Source of the DNA: Thiomicrospira sp.
GTDB lineage: Bacteria > Pseudomonadota > Gammaproteobacteria > Thiomicrospirales > Thiomicrospiraceae
NCBI RefSeq assembly: GCF_014859555.1
Contig: NZ_JACUTY010000006.1
Coordinates: 1 to 59,923 of the forward strand
DNA length: 59,923 bases
Direction: 5' to 3'
Both the position numbers and the translations under genes were made by a program. A model generated the notes under the pieces. The model worked only from the letters and a program-made list of their open reading frames with translations. It was not told where the DNA came from and did not search any database. Shown here one piece after another: positions 50,412-57,534 of this stretch. The number at the start of each line of letters is the position of its first letter. Position 1 is the first letter of the stretch.

Positions 50412-50577
50412 ATCCATCTCCCTTATAAGGCTTTGTATAGCATTCAATTATAACCTGAGCAGCGCCAAAGCTTAAATGATTCATCACTCATCGGATTGTT
50501 TACGCCAAGCGCTAGGTTTCGTTATACTAAATCCCATATCCTTAATTAAACCCAACTTAGAGCAGGCCTGGCGACCA

Positions 50578-51966
50578 ATGAATTACCCATGGATTTGGGA
50601 TCCCTCACATGACAAACAAGTTTCTCAAGACCGGATAACCGAGCTCAACAAACTATTAGATCAAAAACACTTTGATGTGATTCGTCAAGTCGTGCTTGAG
50701 GTCGAAATACCGGACATGGCCGAGCTGCTCGAAGCGTTGCCAAAAGCCCACCAAACTTTATTTTTTCGCACCCTACCGCGAAAAACCGCCAGTGCGGTCT
50801 TTGCCTATTTATCACAAGGGGCAAAAGAAGACTTAATCAACGCACTCAGCGATGAAGATGCTTTGCATTTGGTTAAAAATCTTGATGCCGATGACCGCGC
50901 CGCCTTTTTAGACGAGCTACCGGCCGAGGTTGTACAAGTCTTAACCCAGCGATTGCCCCACGACAAACTTAAAGAAGTTCAGCTTTTACTGGGTTATCCG
51001 CCTGAGAGTGTGGGGCGTTTAATGCGCCCAGATTATGTCAGCATCCAAGAACACTGGACCGTGCAACAAGCCCTTAACTACTTGCGCAGTTTTCGACAAG
51101 ATTCCACCCGCTTTAATACTTTATTTGTCACCAATGAAGACAATCAACTTACCGATGCATTACACATTCGTAAACTCGCCCTAGCACTTGATCCGCAAAC
51201 CCTGATTAAACAGCTTATGGATCATCGCGTAATTTATATTCATGCCCGCGAAGACCAAGAAAAAGCGGTCGAAATCATGCAACATTACGACCTCAACGCC
51301 TTACCCGTCGTGGATGAAGATAACGTTCTGATCGGGATGGTTACAGTGGATGATGTATTAGACGTGGCTCAAGCTGAAACCACCGAAGACTTCCACAAAA
51401 TGGGTTCTGTGGGTGTGATTAATTTCAACATCAGTGAAGCTGGGCCATTTTTGCTGTACCGAAAACGCATCGGCTGGTTATTGTTATTGGTGTTTGTCAA
51501 TATTTTCGCCGGCATGGCGATTGCCACCTTTGAGCATATGATTGCTGCCGTAGTGGCGTTAGTATTCTTTTTACCCTTAATTATCGGCAGCAGCGGTAAC
51601 GCCGGCGCACAAGCCTCCACGCTCATGGTGCGCTCGCTCGCCACTGGTGATGTTCGCATGAAAGACTGGGGGCATTTAATGCTCAAAGAAATCTCGGTCG
51701 CCGCCGCATTGGGTTTAACCATGGGCGTGGCGATATCTGCAATCGGCTTTTGGCAAGGTGGCCAAGCACTCGCCATGGTGGTGGGCTTATCTATGGTGGC
51801 GGTGGTTGTGGTCGGCAGTTTAATGGGCATGAGCCTGCCGTTTTTACTCAGCAAACTCAAAATAGACCCCGCCACCGCCAGCGCGCCACTCATTACATCG
51901 ATGGCGGACATTCTAGGGATACTTATTTACTTTAGTATTGCGGTCGCGATTATCCCAATCCCTTAA
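50578..51966 (+). CDS. mgtE: magnesium transporter MgtE
   Basis: This is a 462-residue Mg2+ channel. The N-terminal superhelical domain (LLEALPKAHQTLFFRTLP, DELPAEVVQVLTQRL) is followed by two CBS domains (LMRPDYVSIQEHWTV; ALPVVDEDNVLIGMVTVDDVLDV) and a five-helix membrane domain with the conserved FFLPLIIGSSGNAGAQAS pore motif. The frame opens at 50476, but the ATG at 50578 fits the family start. Its last 135 bases lie in a perfect 390-bp repeat, so a second 3' end exists at 56144-56278. Confidence 0.95.
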   Translation: MNYPWIWDPSHDKQVSQDRITELNKLLDQKHFDVIRQVVLEVEIPDMAELLEALPKAHQTLFFRTLPRKTASAVFAYLSQGAKEDLINALSDEDALHLVKNLDADDRAAFLDELPAEVVQVLTQRLPHDKLKEVQLLLGYPPESVGRLMRPDYVSIQEHWTVQQALNYLRSFRQDSTRFNTLFVTNEDNQLTDALHIRKLALALDPQTLIKQLMDHRVIYIHAREDQEKAVEIMQHYDLNALPVVDEDNVLIGMVTVDDVLDVAQAETTEDFHKMGSVGVINFNISEAGPFLLYRKRIGWLLLLVFVNIFAGMAIATFEHMIAAVVALVFFLPLIIGSSGNAGAQASTLMVRSLATGDVRMKDWGHLMLKEISVAAALGLTMGVAISAIGFWQGGQALAMVVGLSMVAVVVVGSLMGMSLPFLLSKLKIDPATASAPLITSMADILGILIYFSIAVAIIPIP

Positions 51967-52221
51967 AACAACAAAGCACCAGGCCTGGTGCTTTGCTTCT
52001 ACTTTCTAGCCCAGCTCAAGTTTGGGGCGATCAAAATAAAGTTCGACCAGTAAGCCACCCAGGCTTTCGCTGTGACCGAATACCAAATGCCCTTGATAGG
52101 CATACACCATTTGTTCGACCTGCTGCAAACCACCCGGCTCCTCACCTGGTTGACGTGCTTGAGAACGTTGCTGAATTTGCTCTAAACGATCCGCTGCCAT
52201 GCCTTCACCATCGTCTTCAAA
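51832..52221. repeat. 390-bp direct repeat, left copy
   Basis: This block is base-for-base identical to 56144-56533. It holds the mgtE 3' end, the intergenic palindrome and the 3' end of a convergent kinase-like gene. The two copies flank about 3.9 kb of unique DNA carrying two cell-surface genes. Confidence 0.97.
51972..51995. terminator. 24-bp palindromic bidirectional terminator after mgtE
   Basis: CAAAGC and GCTTTG arms extend the ACCAGGCCTGGT core into a perfect 24-bp palindrome between the convergent mgtE and kinase-gene ends. An identical copy sits at 56284-56307 in the right repeat. Confidence 0.75.
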
Positions 52222-52389
52222 GCTTATACACAAGCGTTCTATAAATGTGCAATAAACAAGGGTTTTAACCTCTTTATTGCCTTTATTAAAAACATTGAGT
52301 TGAGCTAGAAAGAACTCTAGGTACGAAAAAGTGTATACACTCCAAGTCGTTTGGTGACTGATTTGTTGTAGAGGAAAGCATTTCAGCAC
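52006..52389 (-). pseudogene. truncated, chimeric 3' fragment of the kinase-like gene
   Basis: The C-terminal part, from FEDDGEGMAADR onward, is identical to the intact gene at 56318-57481. Upstream of 52221 the sequence stops being identical but still reads like the same ATPase domain: ERLCISFEDD against DRLCLRFEDD, and LAQLNVFNKGN in the N-box position at matching spacing. Further upstream the likeness ends. The fragment therefore appears to come partly from a diverged homologue. The start codon given is only the end of the open frame. Confidence 0.8.
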
Positions 52390-52768
52390 CCCGCTTCTGA
52401 TTCACAAACACTCCTAGGCTTGACAAAAACTATTGCCTCTCATTCAAGTGTCCGTTTCGATTAGACCAGAACAGTCTGGCAGACAGACCACAAATTTGAC
52501 ACAAATAGACGCGGTAAGCTTAAAACACGTTTATGGGACAACTACTCCGGGTTTAAGGGGTAGCGGTTGTGGATGGCGGTTAAGACACTGATTTAAGTAA
52601 TTATTTGCAAATTTTTCTATGTTACTGATAAAAAAAAGGATAATAACAAAATACTACTGCATACTGCTAGTAATAAAAATACGCAAAATAAATCGTCATC
52701 GCTCCGCTTAGATGCATACTGAGTTAGAACGGGGCAATATGGTTCTTTTTAGGATCGGATAACATAGG
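52390..52768. other. gene-free left part of the insertion
   Basis: This 379-base AT-rich stretch precedes the lipoprotein gene and holds no credible gene. A short repeat GCATACTG occurs near 52660 and again near 52712. No IS end, integrase fragment or terminal inverted repeat was seen. It probably contains the promoter of the lipoprotein gene, but no strong sigma70 match stands out. Confidence 0.4.
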
Positions 52769-54424
52769 ATGAATAGAATGAACAAACTTAAAAAATTTAC
52801 CACACCACTGCTATGGTTTTCAGCATTACTGCTGATTGCTCTGGCGGCTGGTTGTAATAGTGGTAGCGATCCCATTCTTGGCGGCAGCGGCGGTGGCGGC
52901 AGCGGCGGTGGCGAGAATGCGCCGATTGTGGTGGATAGTACCGCACCCACAATAATCCGTGTCAGTGAGCTGGATGGTACGACCGAATTGATGCCCTTAA
53001 ACCGGGATATTACCGCGACCTTTAGCGAAGCGATGGATCCGGCTACATTGATTTCGGCCTCTCCATCTACTGCTGAGGGCACGACCTTTACGGTATGCTC
53101 AACCGCAACTGAGGGAGGTGATTGTGTTAGTCCCGTTGCAGGTGTCGTGAGCTATACCAACAATACGGTGGCATTCAATCCGGATGTCGATCTCGCTAAT
53201 GCCACATGGCATAAGTCAAGCATTACAGCGGCGGCAACAGATTTGGCAGGCAATGCACTGCTTGTACCTCCAGCCGTAGGCAGTTTGCCCAATCCGTGGA
53301 ACTGGCAGACTGGCACGGCAGATCTTGATGCTCCCACTATAACCTTGACCAATCCGGCTGATCTCGACACTGATGTGCCGCTTAATAAAACGATTAACGC
53401 AACCTTTAGTGAGGAGATGCGTCAGGCCACAATAACCGCCACGAACTATACGGTGATGGAGACGGCTACCCAGGTCAATGTGCCTGGAACAGTTTCTTAT
53501 GATGTGCAGCACCATATCGCATCTTTTGTACCATCGTCCAATCTCTCGCCTGATACCGACTACACGGTAACGGTCAGTGATGCGGTAGAAGATCTGGCGG
53601 GTAATGCACTGCAGGCAGGAGTTTCGCCGAATCCGTGGACTTTCCGAACAGGAGAAACCGTTGTGGAGCCGCAAGCGCTGGCCATCAATTTGGGTGTCGC
53701 TGAATCCTTCGGTATCGCCTCGCGTGCTGGGCTGACAACAACGGGGGTTACTGTAGTAAATGGCGATATTGCCCTATATCCAGAAGCAAGCTGTACCGAT
53801 GCTACTGGTAATGCGGGTGCATCGCAGACCTGTCTTGTGAAGACCTATGTAAGCTCAACTGGCATGACTGTGAATGGCTCAATCTACTGGGCGGGTGATC
53901 CCTATGATGACGGCGCTACTGCTCTTGCTGTCACCAATGATCTGAATACCGCGTGGGTCGAGGGCAAGAATAAGGCAGACACTTTTGCTACTGGATTCCT
54001 CGGTGGTGAGCTGGGTGCTTCATCACTTCCAGACGGGAAAATCCTCCTCCCTGGCGTCTATCATGAGGCCGCGCTTGGTCTAGCTGCAGGTAATACCGTC
54101 ACTTTCGATGCTGAAGGTGATCCGAATGCGATCTTTATTATTAAGATAGACAGCTCCTTTGTTGATTCTGGGATTGTAGGCAACGAGACTGAAGTCAAAT
54201 TAGCCAACGGTGCGCAGGCCAGAAATATCTGGTTTATCGCCGGTCTGGATATCACTATCGGCCAAGGTACAACCTGGTATGGCAATATTTTGGCAGGTCG
54301 GACCGCAACAATTAATAGCGGCTCTGCGGTAAGTGGGCGTGTTCTGGCAGGTGCTAGCGGAGCGGGTGCGATTACCCTTACTGGCGCGGATACATCCGTC
54401 ACAAGTATTAGCGTACCCCAGTAA
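52769..54424 (+). CDS. lipoprotein with two Ig-like domains and a DUF3494 ice-binding-like domain
   Basis: This is a 551-residue exported lipoprotein: signal peptide with lipobox LAAGC (Cys 29), a Gly/Ser linker, two Big_5-type Ig-like repeats (about 54-175 and 187-295, each with TATFSEAMD- or NATFSEEM-like motifs and TDLAGNAL/EDLAGNAL), then a DUF3494 domain (about 303-551) starting NLGVAESFGIASRAGLTTTG. DUF3494 proteins include ice-binding adhesins; in many bacteria of temperate habitats the fold probably serves adhesion. An in-frame ATG at 52778 has the better-spaced AGGAT. Codon choice looks unlike the flanking genes, consistent with transfer. Confidence 0.88.
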   Translation: MNRMNKLKKFTTPLLWFSALLLIALAAGCNSGSDPILGGSGGGGSGGGENAPIVVDSTAPTIIRVSELDGTTELMPLNRDITATFSEAMDPATLISASPSTAEGTTFTVCSTATEGGDCVSPVAGVVSYTNNTVAFNPDVDLANATWHKSSITAAATDLAGNALLVPPAVGSLPNPWNWQTGTADLDAPTITLTNPADLDTDVPLNKTINATFSEEMRQATITATNYTVMETATQVNVPGTVSYDVQHHIASFVPSSNLSPDTDYTVTVSDAVEDLAGNALQAGVSPNPWTFRTGETVVEPQALAINLGVAESFGIASRAGLTTTGVTVVNGDIALYPEASCTDATGNAGASQTCLVKTYVSSTGMTVNGSIYWAGDPYDDGATALAVTNDLNTAWVEGKNKADTFATGFLGGELGASSLPDGKILLPGVYHEAALGLAAGNTVTFDAEGDPNAIFIIKIDSSFVDSGIVGNETEVKLANGAQARNIWFIAGLDITIGQGTTWYGNILAGRTATINSGSAVSGRVLAGASGAGAITLTGADTSVTSISVPQ

Positions 54425-54457
54425 GCCCTGAAAAATGGGTTGCATTAGAAAAGTCCG

Positions 54458-54480
54458 AAGCCCCTCGCTAGGGGGGCTTT
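54458..54480 (+). terminator. hairpin terminator after the DUF3494 gene
   Basis: AAGCCCC (54458-54464) pairs with GGGGCTT (54473-54479) around a TCGCTAGG loop, followed by a short T stretch. It separates the lipoprotein gene from the OmpA-family gene. Confidence 0.75.
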
Positions 54481-54543
54481 CGCAAGCTGGCACATTATAT
54501 TGGTGGCTCTCGATGAGTTGCACCAGGATATTTGGAGAACAAT

Positions 54544-55986
54544 ATGAAAAGAATTACTAAGACCGCAGGCATGCTAGGCATAATGGGGTGTGCTGTGATG
54601 GTTAGCCCATACGCGCTGGCCGACGATTCATTCTGGTATATGGGTGGCAATATCGGCCAATCCAAAGCGAAGATTGATGATAAGTCTATTAATAGACAGC
54701 TAATTGATTCTGGTTTCACTTCGAGCACAATCAATGCCGACGATAGCGACTGGGCGTATAAACTTTTTGGTGGATATCAGCTTAATCATAACTTTGCTAT
54801 AGAAGCTGGCTATTTTGACCTTGGACAGTTTAGTTACAAAGCGACTACCGTACCAGAGGGAACTCTAAATGGGAAGATCAACCTTAAAGGCGTGAATCTC
54901 GATTTAGTCGGTTTTCTGCCAGTCAATGAGAAGTTCTCCGCATTCGCCAGAGTGGGCGCGAACTATGCCCGTACTGAAGGCACTTTTTCTAGTAGCGGTG
55001 CTGTTAGTGGGCCAACGGATGACACACCAACCAAAACCGCTACCCACTACAAAGCTGGTGTGGGGCTTCAATATGATCTAAGCAGATCGGTTGGGCTGCG
55101 TGCAGAAGCGGAACGCTACCGTATCGACGACGTAGTGGGGGGCCAGGGCGACATTAATATGTTTTCACTAGGCCTAGTCTATCGCTTCGGCAGGGAAACG
55201 CCCGTTCAGCCACAGGTAGTCGTGCCGATCAAAGTGAAGACACAGGAGTATTGCACCATCCTCGATATCCAGTTTGAGATAAAGCAGGATGTGATTGAGC
55301 GCCAAGAGAAGGAGAAGCTTGCAGTCATAGGGACATTTATGAAAAAATACCCCGACACCACAGCCGTAATCGAAGGGCATTCTGACAATGTCGGTACCAG
55401 GGACTACAACCTGAAACTCTCGCAGCGTCGTGCACAAAGTGTGGTGAGCTATCTGGTCGATGAGTTAAATATTGCCCCCGACCGTTTAACGGCAGTGGGA
55501 TACGGTGAGACTCGCCCCATCGCTGACAATAGTACGCGCGAAGGCAAACAGGCGAATCGTCGCATTGCAGCGGTCATTGCTTGTGTAACGGATATCGCAG
55601 GTCTTAAGGTGACCCCCGCTAGAATGACAATCGCGATGGAGATGAATTTCGATCCATACAAAACCGTAGTAGATCAACAGTACTACAATGAACTTGCTAA
55701 TGTGGCGAAGCTTATGAGAGCGGACCCTGCTATCACTGCAGCCGTTGAAGGGCATGCGGCTGGCCGCGTCGGCAAGACAAGTGTATCTGATAAAGATGCA
55801 ATGGAAATCTCGCAGAAGCGTGCAGAGGCGGTGGTCGATCATCTAGTGAGCAAAGAGGGCATATCGCGTGAACGACTGTCTACTGCAGCGTTCGGCAAAA
55901 CCAAACGCGTCTCTTACGACACTATGCTGAAAGGTCAGGAGGAAAACCGTCGCGTTAATATTATCTTCAATTACGTGACAAAATAA
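54544..55986 (+). CDS. OmpA-family outer-membrane protein with two tandem OmpA-C domains
   Basis: This is a 480-residue protein. A signal peptide (cleaved near YALA) is followed by an eight-strand OmpA-type barrel (about 22-217, ending LGLVYRFGRE) and two OmpA-like domains. The first has the full peptidoglycan motif EGHSDNVGTRDYNLKLSQRRA and QANRRI. The second has EGHAAGRVGK, ISQKRAEAVV and EENRRVNI, with the diaminopimelate-binding Asp replaced (HSD to HAA). The ATG at 54544 with GGAG upstream is preferred to a TTG at 54532. It follows the ice-binding-like gene on the same strand inside the insertion, suggesting a surface module. Confidence 0.9.
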   Translation: MKRITKTAGMLGIMGCAVMVSPYALADDSFWYMGGNIGQSKAKIDDKSINRQLIDSGFTSSTINADDSDWAYKLFGGYQLNHNFAIEAGYFDLGQFSYKATTVPEGTLNGKINLKGVNLDLVGFLPVNEKFSAFARVGANYARTEGTFSSSGAVSGPTDDTPTKTATHYKAGVGLQYDLSRSVGLRAEAERYRIDDVVGGQGDINMFSLGLVYRFGRETPVQPQVVVPIKVKTQEYCTILDIQFEIKQDVIERQEKEKLAVIGTFMKKYPDTTAVIEGHSDNVGTRDYNLKLSQRRAQSVVSYLVDELNIAPDRLTAVGYGETRPIADNSTREGKQANRRIAAVIACVTDIAGLKVTPARMTIAMEMNFDPYKTVVDQQYYNELANVAKLMRADPAITAAVEGHAAGRVGKTSVSDKDAMEISQKRAEAVVDHLVSKEGISRERLSTAAFGKTKRVSYDTMLKGQEENRRVNIIFNYVTK

Positions 55987-56027
55987 TTAAAGGGGGGGGC
56001 AGAGCCACTGCTCCCCCCCCCCTTTAA
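55987..56027 (+). terminator. strong G/C-tract terminator after the OmpA-family gene
   Basis: TTAAAG followed by a G8 tract pairs with a C10 tract followed by TTTAA around a CAGAGCCACTG loop, then TTT. The long homopolymer arms are unusual for this window. It begins right after the stop codon. Confidence 0.85.
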
Positions 56028-56095
56028 TTTCTCACCAAACATAAATTCATTTGAGGCCGCACTTTTCTACAATAGGTGGCGGCTTTAGAAGATGT

Positions 56096-56278
56096 GTGGT
56101 GGCACTGTTGTTCTTTTTGCCTTTAATTCTCGGCAGGCGCACAAGCCTGCCGTTTTTACTCAGCAAACTCAAAATAGACCCCGCCACCGCCAGCGCGCCA
56201 CTCATTACATCGATGGCGGACATTCTAGGGATACTTATTTACTTTAGTATTGCGGTCGCGATTATCCCAATCCCTTAA
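56096..56278 (+). pseudogene. mgtE: mgtE 3' fragment, diverged then identical
   Basis: Bases 56096-56136 match the mgtE pore region at 32 of 41 positions, with mostly synonymous differences ([13 protein letters not shown] against VVALVFFLPLIIG). Two internal deletions follow. From 56144 the sequence is identical to the intact mgtE 3' end. The open frame starts in unrelated sequence at 56051, so no functional product is expected. The diverged part indicates a donor mgtE from another strain or species. Confidence 0.85.
56131..56152. repeat. 8-bp inverted repeat at the right junction of the insertion
   Basis: CGGCAGGC (56131-56138) and GCCTGCCG (56145-56152) are perfect inverted repeats around GCACAA, exactly where diverged mgtE sequence gives way to the identical repeat. 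It was probably created by the deletion joint, which used the AGCCT shared by both edges. Confidence 0.6.
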
Positions 56279-56533
56279 AACAACAAAGCACCAGGCCTGG
56301 TGCTTTGCTTCTACTTTCTAGCCCAGCTCAAGTTTGGGGCGATCAAAATAAAGTTCGACCAGTAAGCCACCCAGGCTTTCGCTGTGACCGAATACCAAAT
56401 GCCCTTGATAGGCATACACCATTTGTTCGACCTGCTGCAAACCACCCGGCTCCTCACCTGGTTGACGTGCTTGAGAACGTTGCTGAATTTGCTCTAAACG
56501 ATCCGCTGCCATGCCTTCACCATCGTCTTCAAA
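56144..56533. repeat. 390-bp direct repeat, right copy
   Basis: Identical throughout to 51832-52221 (offset 4312). Here it continues into the complete kinase-like gene on the right, whereas on the left side only a diverged mgtE remnant remains. Confidence 0.97.
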
Positions 56534-57481
56534 ACGCAAACATAAGCGATCATCTAAATGAGCCACACTGACCATCACCTGCGACTCACTCCAATTGACC
56601 GCGTTATTCAGTAAGTTTTTTAATAGTAAATCCATGTCCGTTTGCGCAATCAAAAAGGTGGCGTCTTCAGGCGTATAATTTAATTTGATCTGCAGGTCTG
56701 GATGACTGGCTTGATAAGCGTCAATATGACGACGCAAATCACGTGGCCAATGAATTTGATAAGCGTTGGGTTTTTGATCGTTTAACACCATGCGCGCTCG
56801 AAGCTGAATCAGAGCCTGGTGTAAATGGTCGGCTAAAGGCATCCATTCGGATGGCCAACGTTTACCAAAAATATCGGCCTGCAAACTTTGCAACCCAAGC
56901 TGTTTAGAATTCGGTAAGTGCCCCAATTGATGCCCTAAAAAATATCGACTTAAGCCCAAGGTAATCAACCATAACAAGCCAATTAAGGCACTATAAAACA
57001 CATAAAACTGTTTAAGCATGGCGGTTTCTAAGGTGTAATCCTTTGCGACAGCTAAATCCAACCAGCGGTCATTAAACTCCACACTACCAAAACTCACTAA
57101 CACCGGTTTTTGATTGGGTCCCTCAGCAATAAATAAATCAACGTCTGCACTGGTGCGCTCCGGTAAAGGCAGCACATAACCATCTAACGAAGGCGAGTCT
57201 ATATGCTGCTGACCTTGAGCATACAAAACAAAATAATGCCCAGAACCGGGTTCAGAAAAGTTGACTCGCTGAGAACTGATGTCGACCTCAATAGGTTGGT
57301 TTTCCGACCATTGCGTCTGCGTCAATAAAGCACGCGCATCGGCAGTCAATTGCTGACCTACCCAGTATTGGCTACCAAAATAAACCGCGGACAAACCTAG
57401 CCCCCAAAAAACCAAAAACACCAAACTTACCGTGAATCCAAAACCACGATTAAATTGAGTTCGTAATGACCGAAACTTCAT
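56318..57481 (-). CDS. membrane sensor kinase-like ATPase without a canonical H-box
   Basis: This is a 387-residue protein with TM helices near residues 14-38 and about 158-180 enclosing a periplasmic domain, and a C-terminal HATPase_c domain with N-box NLLNNAVNW and DDGEG. The region where HisKA should carry HExxxPL shows only LADHLHQALIQLRARM, so a normal phospho-accepting histidine is not evident. No response regulator is adjacent. It follows the chemoreceptor gene after about 50 bases, so the two may share a transcript. The ATG at 57481 has GGGAGGGG upstream. Its last third is duplicated at 52006-52221. Confidence 0.82.
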   Translation of the reverse strand: MKFRSLRTQFNRGFGFTVSLVFLVFWGLGLSAVYFGSQYWVGQQLTADARALLTQTQWSENQPIEVDISSQRVNFSEPGSGHYFVLYAQGQQHIDSPSLDGYVLPLPERTSADVDLFIAEGPNQKPVLVSFGSVEFNDRWLDLAVAKDYTLETAMLKQFYVFYSALIGLLWLITLGLSRYFLGHQLGHLPNSKQLGLQSLQADIFGKRWPSEWMPLADHLHQALIQLRARMVLNDQKPNAYQIHWPRDLRRHIDAYQASHPDLQIKLNYTPEDATFLIAQTDMDLLLKNLLNNAVNWSESQVMVSVAHLDDRLCLRFEDDGEGMAADRLEQIQQRSQARQPGEEPGGLQQVEQMVYAYQGHLVFGHSESLGGLLVELYFDRPKLELG

Positions 57482-57534
57482 AGGTGCCCCTCCCTTTCTT
57501 AACAACCCAGGGAGTGTCTTGGTTGATAAGGTGT

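Follow-up and report, generated by a model that had tools for sequence, protein, structure and literature searches.

A predicted ice-binding protein cassette between perfect 390-bp direct repeats at the mgtE/kinase locus of a Thiomicrospira genome

Introduction

How can several kilobases of DNA enter a locus of two convergent genes and leave both genes whole? This question is raised by a stretch of the genome of Thiomicrospira sp. (assembly GCF_014859555.1, contig NZ_JACUTY010000006.1), here called the window, meaning all 59,923 bp that were analysed. A magnesium transporter gene (mgtE) and a gene for a sensor histidine kinase are separated there by an insert that encodes a predicted ice-binding protein (IBP) and an OmpA-family protein and is enclosed by two copies of a 390-bp direct repeat. 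A preliminary description, made from the sequence letters, had pointed out the repeat and proposed a single-crossover integration or a duplication-insertion. We find the single-crossover idea to be the best class of explanation. With moderate confidence, we propose a single-crossover-type (ends-in) integration of foreign DNA, in which 390 bp of recipient sequence were copied to both sides of the insert.

Results

The insert lies between identical repeat copies and has an empty site in a congener

The two repeat copies are identical at 390 of 390 bases and the match does not extend by a single base beyond either edge, although the assembly is a draft of 146 contigs and, if it is based on short reads, near-identical repeat copies can appear exactly identical. 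An exact match of 390 bases is far beyond chance, and it forms the sole direct-repeat family of at least 40 bp that a repeat finder listed in the window. The copies start 4,312 bp apart and enclose an insert of 3,922 bp (52222-56143). The final 135 bp of mgtE, including the stop codon, lie inside the left copy. Orphan gene ends accompany the complete genes, the left copy carrying a second kinase 3′ end and the right copy a second mgtE 3′ end. Between the two gene ends, each copy contains a perfect 24-bp terminator-like palindrome (51972-51995 and 56284-56307). Whole or in part, this palindrome was also observed on four other contigs of the same genome (C18, C137, C22 and C7) and in the congeners G001 and G004; it may be a recurring terminator or an uptake-type sequence.

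To place the locus among its relatives, 39 genomes including its own were compared with the region at the DNA level, with one genome per species and at most seven candidates scored per genome, so that the matches listed are not exhaustive. Among these matches, 13 of the 39 genomes matched the region, and only the congener G001, out of 38 relatives, matched both mgtE and the kinase gene. In G001 the two genes are adjacent and the insert is missing. Protein identity to the G001 locus is 90% for mgtE, 82% for the kinase and 90% for the MCP, and the alignments cover 394 of 395 residues of the kinase and run in mgtE from residue 29 through to the C-terminus. Six of the seven other congeners (G002, G003, G005, G006, G007 and G008) carry mgtE without this kinase in 14-15 kb; in G004, a 12-kb contig that lacks mgtE encodes a kinase of 45% identity. 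When the insert was taken out of the window, DNA identity to G001 was 75-82% within the repeat and 71-85% along the locus. Because its divergence from G001 resembles that of the rest of the locus, the 390-bp repeat looks like resident DNA. The 3,922-bp segment is an insertion. The preliminary description had thus correctly recognised a perfect repeat, an insertion of about 4 kb and two intact genes, both of them complete open reading frames (ORFs) alignable with their G001 copies; the empty site that it suggested looking for in sister strains is present in a congener.

In five congeners a second, diverged mgtE lies directly upstream of the mgtE orthologue (G002, G007, G003, G008 and G006; loci L048, L050, L051, L052 and L053). 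These second copies are 40-45% identical in amino acid sequence to the mgtE of the window.

Scraps of the same two genes border the insert

At the right junction, the insert ends in a scrap of a diverged mgtE, called m′. Positions 56099-56138 agree with positions 51553-51592 of the resident mgtE at 30 of 40 bases. Two of 59,000 plus-strand placements in the window reached at least 30 of 40 identical bases; one has to be the mgtE segment itself, the other m′. Consistent with this assignment, the Pfam MgtE match spans m′ and continues into the right repeat copy. Of 13 codons compared by eye, 7 differ, 5 of them synonymously, and the remaining two changes are V-to-L and I-to-L. This mostly synonymous or conservative pattern suggests that m′ evolved as a working gene in another lineage. 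By the same visual comparison, m′ jumps from a position equivalent to about 51616 to 51832, and the five bases AGCCT are common to both sides. The right junction therefore appears to be an illegitimate join that sits on a candidate 5-bp microhomology. An 8-bp perfect stem with a 6-nt loop, followed by a T-run, lies across this junction (56131-56152). The join may have made this terminator-like hairpin, or the hairpin may have aided the join.

At the left junction, the kinase frame coming out of the repeat is continued by k′, a putative scrap of a diverged histidine kinase. The join is in register beside the conserved EDDG motif of the kinase. In a protein alignment anchored at the junction, from which the shared part was excluded, k′ scored 21 against the resident kinase, and none of 300 shuffles reached this score (maximum 16); against the kinases of G001 and G004, the observed score was reached by 1 and 3 of 300 shuffles, respectively. 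The in-register and anchored tests of the scraps were chosen after an unanchored DNA alignment had failed. The identity of k′ is less firm than that of m′.

Two IS3-family ends, IS-A and IS-B, follow k′ inside the insert. IS-A matches insertion sequence (IS) copies in G006, G011 and G012 over 29-32 bp at 93-94% identity, and the transposase ORFs beside these copies (L061 and L065) were assigned to the IS3 family by eye. IS-B is 81-84% identical to at least five places in G008, and four plasmids carry an IS3-family transposase gene whose end is 77% identical to it. The 9 matches listed for the own genome, where 40 of 183 candidates were scored, include neither end. On the right side of the insert, the genomes and loci used for comparison revealed no IS end. 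Owing to m′, the weaker k′ and the two IS3-family ends, the insert looks like foreign DNA that carries fragments of another lineage's mgtE/kinase locus. Table 1 lists the features.

Table 1. Features of the mgtE/kinase locus and its insert, in order of position in the window
Feature	Position	Strand	Remarks
mgtE, magnesium transporter gene	50476..51966	+	complete ORF; Pfam MgtE, MgtE_N, CBS
Left repeat copy	51832..52221		mgtE 3′ end, terminator-like palindrome, kinase 3′ end; exact match to 56144-56533
k′, putative scrap of diverged histidine kinase gene	52222..52309	-	recognisable over about the first 30 bases; continues the kinase frame from the repeat
IS-A, end of IS3-family element (orfB C-terminus side)	52310..52347	+	interior leftward; IS copies in relatives
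IS-B, left end and orfA start of second IS3-family element	52392..52476	-	interior leftward; matches in G008 and on plasmids
IBP gene	52769..54424	+	551 aa; two Big_5 domains and DUF3494 (PF11999)
ompA, OmpA-family protein gene	54532..55986	+	484 aa; OmpA-like barrel and two OmpA domains (Pfam)
Terminator-like perfect inverted repeat 3′ of ompA	55985..56029	+	15-nt arms, G-run / C-run
m′, scrap of diverged mgtE	56096..56143	+	joined to the right copy at AGCCT
Right repeat copy	56144..56533		exact match to the left copy
Sensor histidine kinase gene	56318..57505	-	complete ORF; Pfam HATPase_c; 3′ end inside the right repeat copy

The cargo pairs a predicted ice-binding protein with an OmpA-family protein

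The first cargo gene encodes a predicted ice-binding surface protein. Its PF11999 match has a Pfam E value of 1.7e-29 and 103.4 bits, compared to a curated cut-off of 28.7, and its N-terminus resembles that of a lipoprotein (by eye). In a comparison with the Protein Data Bank (PDB), antifreeze proteins were matched with a best E value of 1.2e-16. Of 62 genomes examined from the family, 3 have PF11999; one of them is the own genome, which carries three further PF11999 genes clustered on contig C12. The cargo IBP is 28-31% identical to these other IBPs (33-35% in a second comparison, with two listed). The closest IBP found is 52% identical and comes from a Desulfobulbaceae metagenome-assembled genome (MAG). 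The greater closeness to this homologue than to the IBPs of the own genome, the rarity of PF11999 in the family and the IS copies found elsewhere all speak for a foreign origin, and the cargo DNA appears to be foreign.

The three DUF3494 genes on C12 (L068, 1-9000) stand in a row and are mutually related, with repeat blocks that are 62-94% identical. By eye, ORFs beside this cluster resemble a subtilase-type protease and a lipoprotein.

Among 369 genomes of the class, own included, homologues of the cargo OmpA protein at an E value of 1e-40 were found in three other genomes (G293, G087 and G167). The G293 homologue is 50-52% identical over nearly its full length. In two of these three, G293 and G087, which belong to other families of the class, a Big_5/DUF3494 gene lies directly upstream of the OmpA gene. 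In G167, no Big_5/DUF3494 gene was found in the 10 kb examined. Starting from the IBP, matches at an E value of 1e-20 were found in six other genomes of the class, and the surroundings were examined in four. The OmpA gene adjoins in one of them, again G087; the other three neighbourhoods gave no match to the cargo OmpA protein at an E value of 1e-10 in 7-11 kb. The Desulfobulbaceae contig, which ends 0.9 kb past its IBP gene, also has no match to this protein. The pairing of IBP and OmpA recurs but is far from general, and the relatives of the cassette in G293 and G087 sit in other gene surroundings. BON-domain genes were observed near the IBP gene on the Desulfobulbaceae contig (L055, 7-738) and in G293 (L083, 4483-5049), which suggests an envelope-stress neighbourhood.

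Searches for a donor

In plasmids, the 3,922-bp insert was matched solely via the IS3-family end, in 4 of 72,556 records, and in phages it was matched in none of 50,697 records. Thirteen stretches of viral contigs fit the IBP pattern and none of them encodes an IBP relative; among genome contigs, one of 21 fitting stretches does, namely that of the Desulfobulbaceae MAG. With regard to the route of uptake, the own genome carries the DprA and ComEC families. E. coli was positive in the same controls, so that their presence is no proof of natural transformation.

Literature searches on DUF3494 and horizontal transfer, on ice-binding in Thiomicrospira and on single-crossover integration gave no title on this locus among those listed. 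Searches that combined ice-binding protein, OmpA and DUF3494, or gap repair with ends-in integration, retrieved no papers. In the examined passages of PMC11035741, Thiomicrospirales is named in the body text and 'ice-binding' appears in one reference.

Discussion

How the insert may have been integrated

The order of the pieces can be read as follows. DNA from a diverged lineage, carrying the IBP/OmpA pair with k′ at one end and m′ at the other, would have entered the cell and been integrated at the resident mgtE/kinase locus in a single-crossover-like, ends-in event. The donor might have been a recircularised molecule or a linear piece that spanned two copies of the chromosome; the order of k′ and m′ is the one expected of a circle, or of a linear ends-in molecule with its break between mgtE and the kinase gene. 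On both sides, the 390 bp that separate the joining points would then have come from the chromosome, which would give identical copies and leave both host genes whole. Since the flanking DNA is diverged (30 of 40 bases in m′) while the 390 bp are exact, both copies must in this scheme be derived from the recipient, which could have supplied them by gap filling, template switching or later conversion. The repeat, the empty site in a congener, m′, the IS ends and the cargo are directly observed, and k′ is less firm; we infer the form of the donor, the order of the steps and the route of uptake, and likewise the copying step behind the exact identity.

The locus has general marks of a single crossover: the insert lies between direct repeats of the target, and the target genes are rebuilt. 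The donor may have carried sequence homologous to the target, as m′ and the putative k′ suggest, although the searches described above found no donor molecule. With a diverged donor and no gap filling, a simple single crossover would leave complementary hybrid copies, whereas the copies here are identical. The proposal of the preliminary description therefore holds as a class of explanation, and its plain form does not, as identical copies need an extra copying step. That description did not include the donor-type scraps, the IS remnants or the cargo.

Several points weigh against our proposal. If the donor was diverged, a plain crossover should have produced hybrid copies that are unequal, and the copying step has to be added as an assumption. 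No donor with the arrangement k′-cargo-m′ was found among plasmids, phages, viral contigs and genome contigs. The scrap k′ is short and its ungapped DNA identity is low, at 14 of 29 bases, a level that is reached by 3,087 of 59,000 placements with a threshold one base off register. Its unanchored DNA alignment to the kinase scored 39, below the median of 46.5 for 200 shuffles, and the HATPase_c Pfam match of the k′ ORF starts at residue 51 and lies under the curated cut-off. For m′, the unanchored DNA alignment of its edge to mgtE scored 48, barely above the maximum of 46 in 200 shuffles, and by eye it lacks 14 bp that are present in the resident mgtE just before the join. Finally, the assembly has draft status, and each species was represented by one genome.

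Alternative explanations

The exact identity of the copies and the 146 contigs would also fit an assembly artefact, or a free 4.3-kb circle (m′-repeat-k′-cargo) that exists beside an empty chromosome, since a short-read assembly graph would yield the same contig as a true integration. A random misjoin would not be expected to place pieces of the same genes on the matching sides, and the two large ORFs of the insert are cargo with no replication domain; of the shorter or antisense ORFs, the two that overlap the repeats were scanned as well. We regard this explanation as unlikely. An old tandem duplication of the mgtE/kinase region would equally leave scraps of the two genes where they are expected, if its inner copies decayed while the cassette and the IS elements arrived and conversion kept the 390 bp identical. 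Direct repeats 4.3 kb apart can indeed convert each other. However, the changes in m′ are mostly synonymous or conservative, unlike decay in place (by eye over 13 codons, with the 14-bp gap adjoining), the cargo is rare in the family, and the copies of the IS ends that were listed are in other genomes. The tandem duplication seems to us slightly less probable still.

Cargo between direct repeats at gene ends, with both genes rebuilt, is also what a remnant of an integrative element (IME/CIME) would leave if the repeats were attachment sites and the integrase had been lost. Attachment site (att) cores are usually tens of bases long, as compared to 390 here. Both large ORFs are cargo and no integrase was recognised in the ORFs scanned, which were these two and the two that overlap the repeats, and the relatives of the cassette in G293 and G087 sit in other gene surroundings. 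The integrative element was set aside on the grounds of its cargo ORFs and the length of the repeat, and we consider it very improbable. The two IS3-family ends on the left side could recall a composite transposon, in which flanking IS elements moved the cassette. Both ends are truncated, lie on the same side and have their interiors leftward, and there is no counterpart on the right in the comparisons described above. IS3-family target duplications measure 3-5 bp. IS transposition of the cassette was rejected because of the truncated, one-sided ends, and it has the lowest probability of all the alternatives, close to negligible. More generally, a short duplication, intact ends and a transposase are all missing: the repeat is 390 bp long and the large ORFs do not encode transposases. 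The statement of the preliminary description that this is not a transposase target duplication is thereby borne out.

Excision by recombination between the repeats is possible. One could go further and imagine a reversible switch, in which RecA releases the cassette as a circle that can later insert again at the empty site, giving an on/off cold-surface cassette in the population, with conversion keeping the repeats identical and IBP-OmpA acting as a travelling two-gene module for attachment to ice. We consider this improbable to a high degree.

If the ends-in integration with recipient copying that we favour is true, the locus is a readable natural case in which foreign DNA went in and the target stayed unbroken. 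Scraps of donor type, a join at a microhomology and a duplicated stretch of the recipient would all still be visible, with unusually clear scars on the mgtE side. It would also mean that import can leave a long perfect repeat as its scar, and that such a repeat need not be the end of an element. The cargo, an IBP with an OmpA protein, is uncommon and rare in this family.

Comparison with known systems

The predicted cargo IBP resembles the DUF3494 (type 1) ice-binding proteins in its PF11999 and Big_5 domains and its antifreeze relatives in the PDB. It differs from them in being paired with an OmpA-family gene.

As a mechanism, the class of event that we propose is already known, and no new mechanistic ground is broken. 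In a published study (PMC3240628), linear DNA with one homologous end gave target duplications in 56 of 60 E. coli clones by PCR, which measured 109-950 bp in 14 sequenced clones and were attributed to trimming, recircularisation and a single crossover. These pJA2 clones are like our locus in that an insert is accompanied by a partial target duplication and a shortened homologous end is joined to foreign DNA. They differ in their origin, a laboratory construct in which a cloned fragment of the target gene served as the homology, whereas here the scraps are diverged and the repeats exact. The remaining 4 of the 60 clones in that study were apparently true products of homology-facilitated illegitimate recombination (HFIR), which is predicted to delete target DNA (PMC3240628). 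HFIR combines one join at homologous sequence with one illegitimate join and brings in foreign cargo, and the present case may be similar. As a homologous anchor, k′ is in register with none of 300 shuffles reaching its score, but its DNA identity is 14 of 29 and the unanchored test was negative. As a microhomology join, AGCCT is a candidate, being present both where m′ ends and where the repeat starts. Instead of a loss of recipient DNA between the joins, 390 bp are duplicated. In Streptococcus pneumoniae, imported DNA that bridges chromatids yields duplications (PMC3784515). The formation of these pneumococcal merodiploids is comparable in that a direct duplication results from import bridging two chromatids. 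There, the duplications span about 100-900 kb and run through repeats, whereas here 390 bp are duplicated around a foreign insert.

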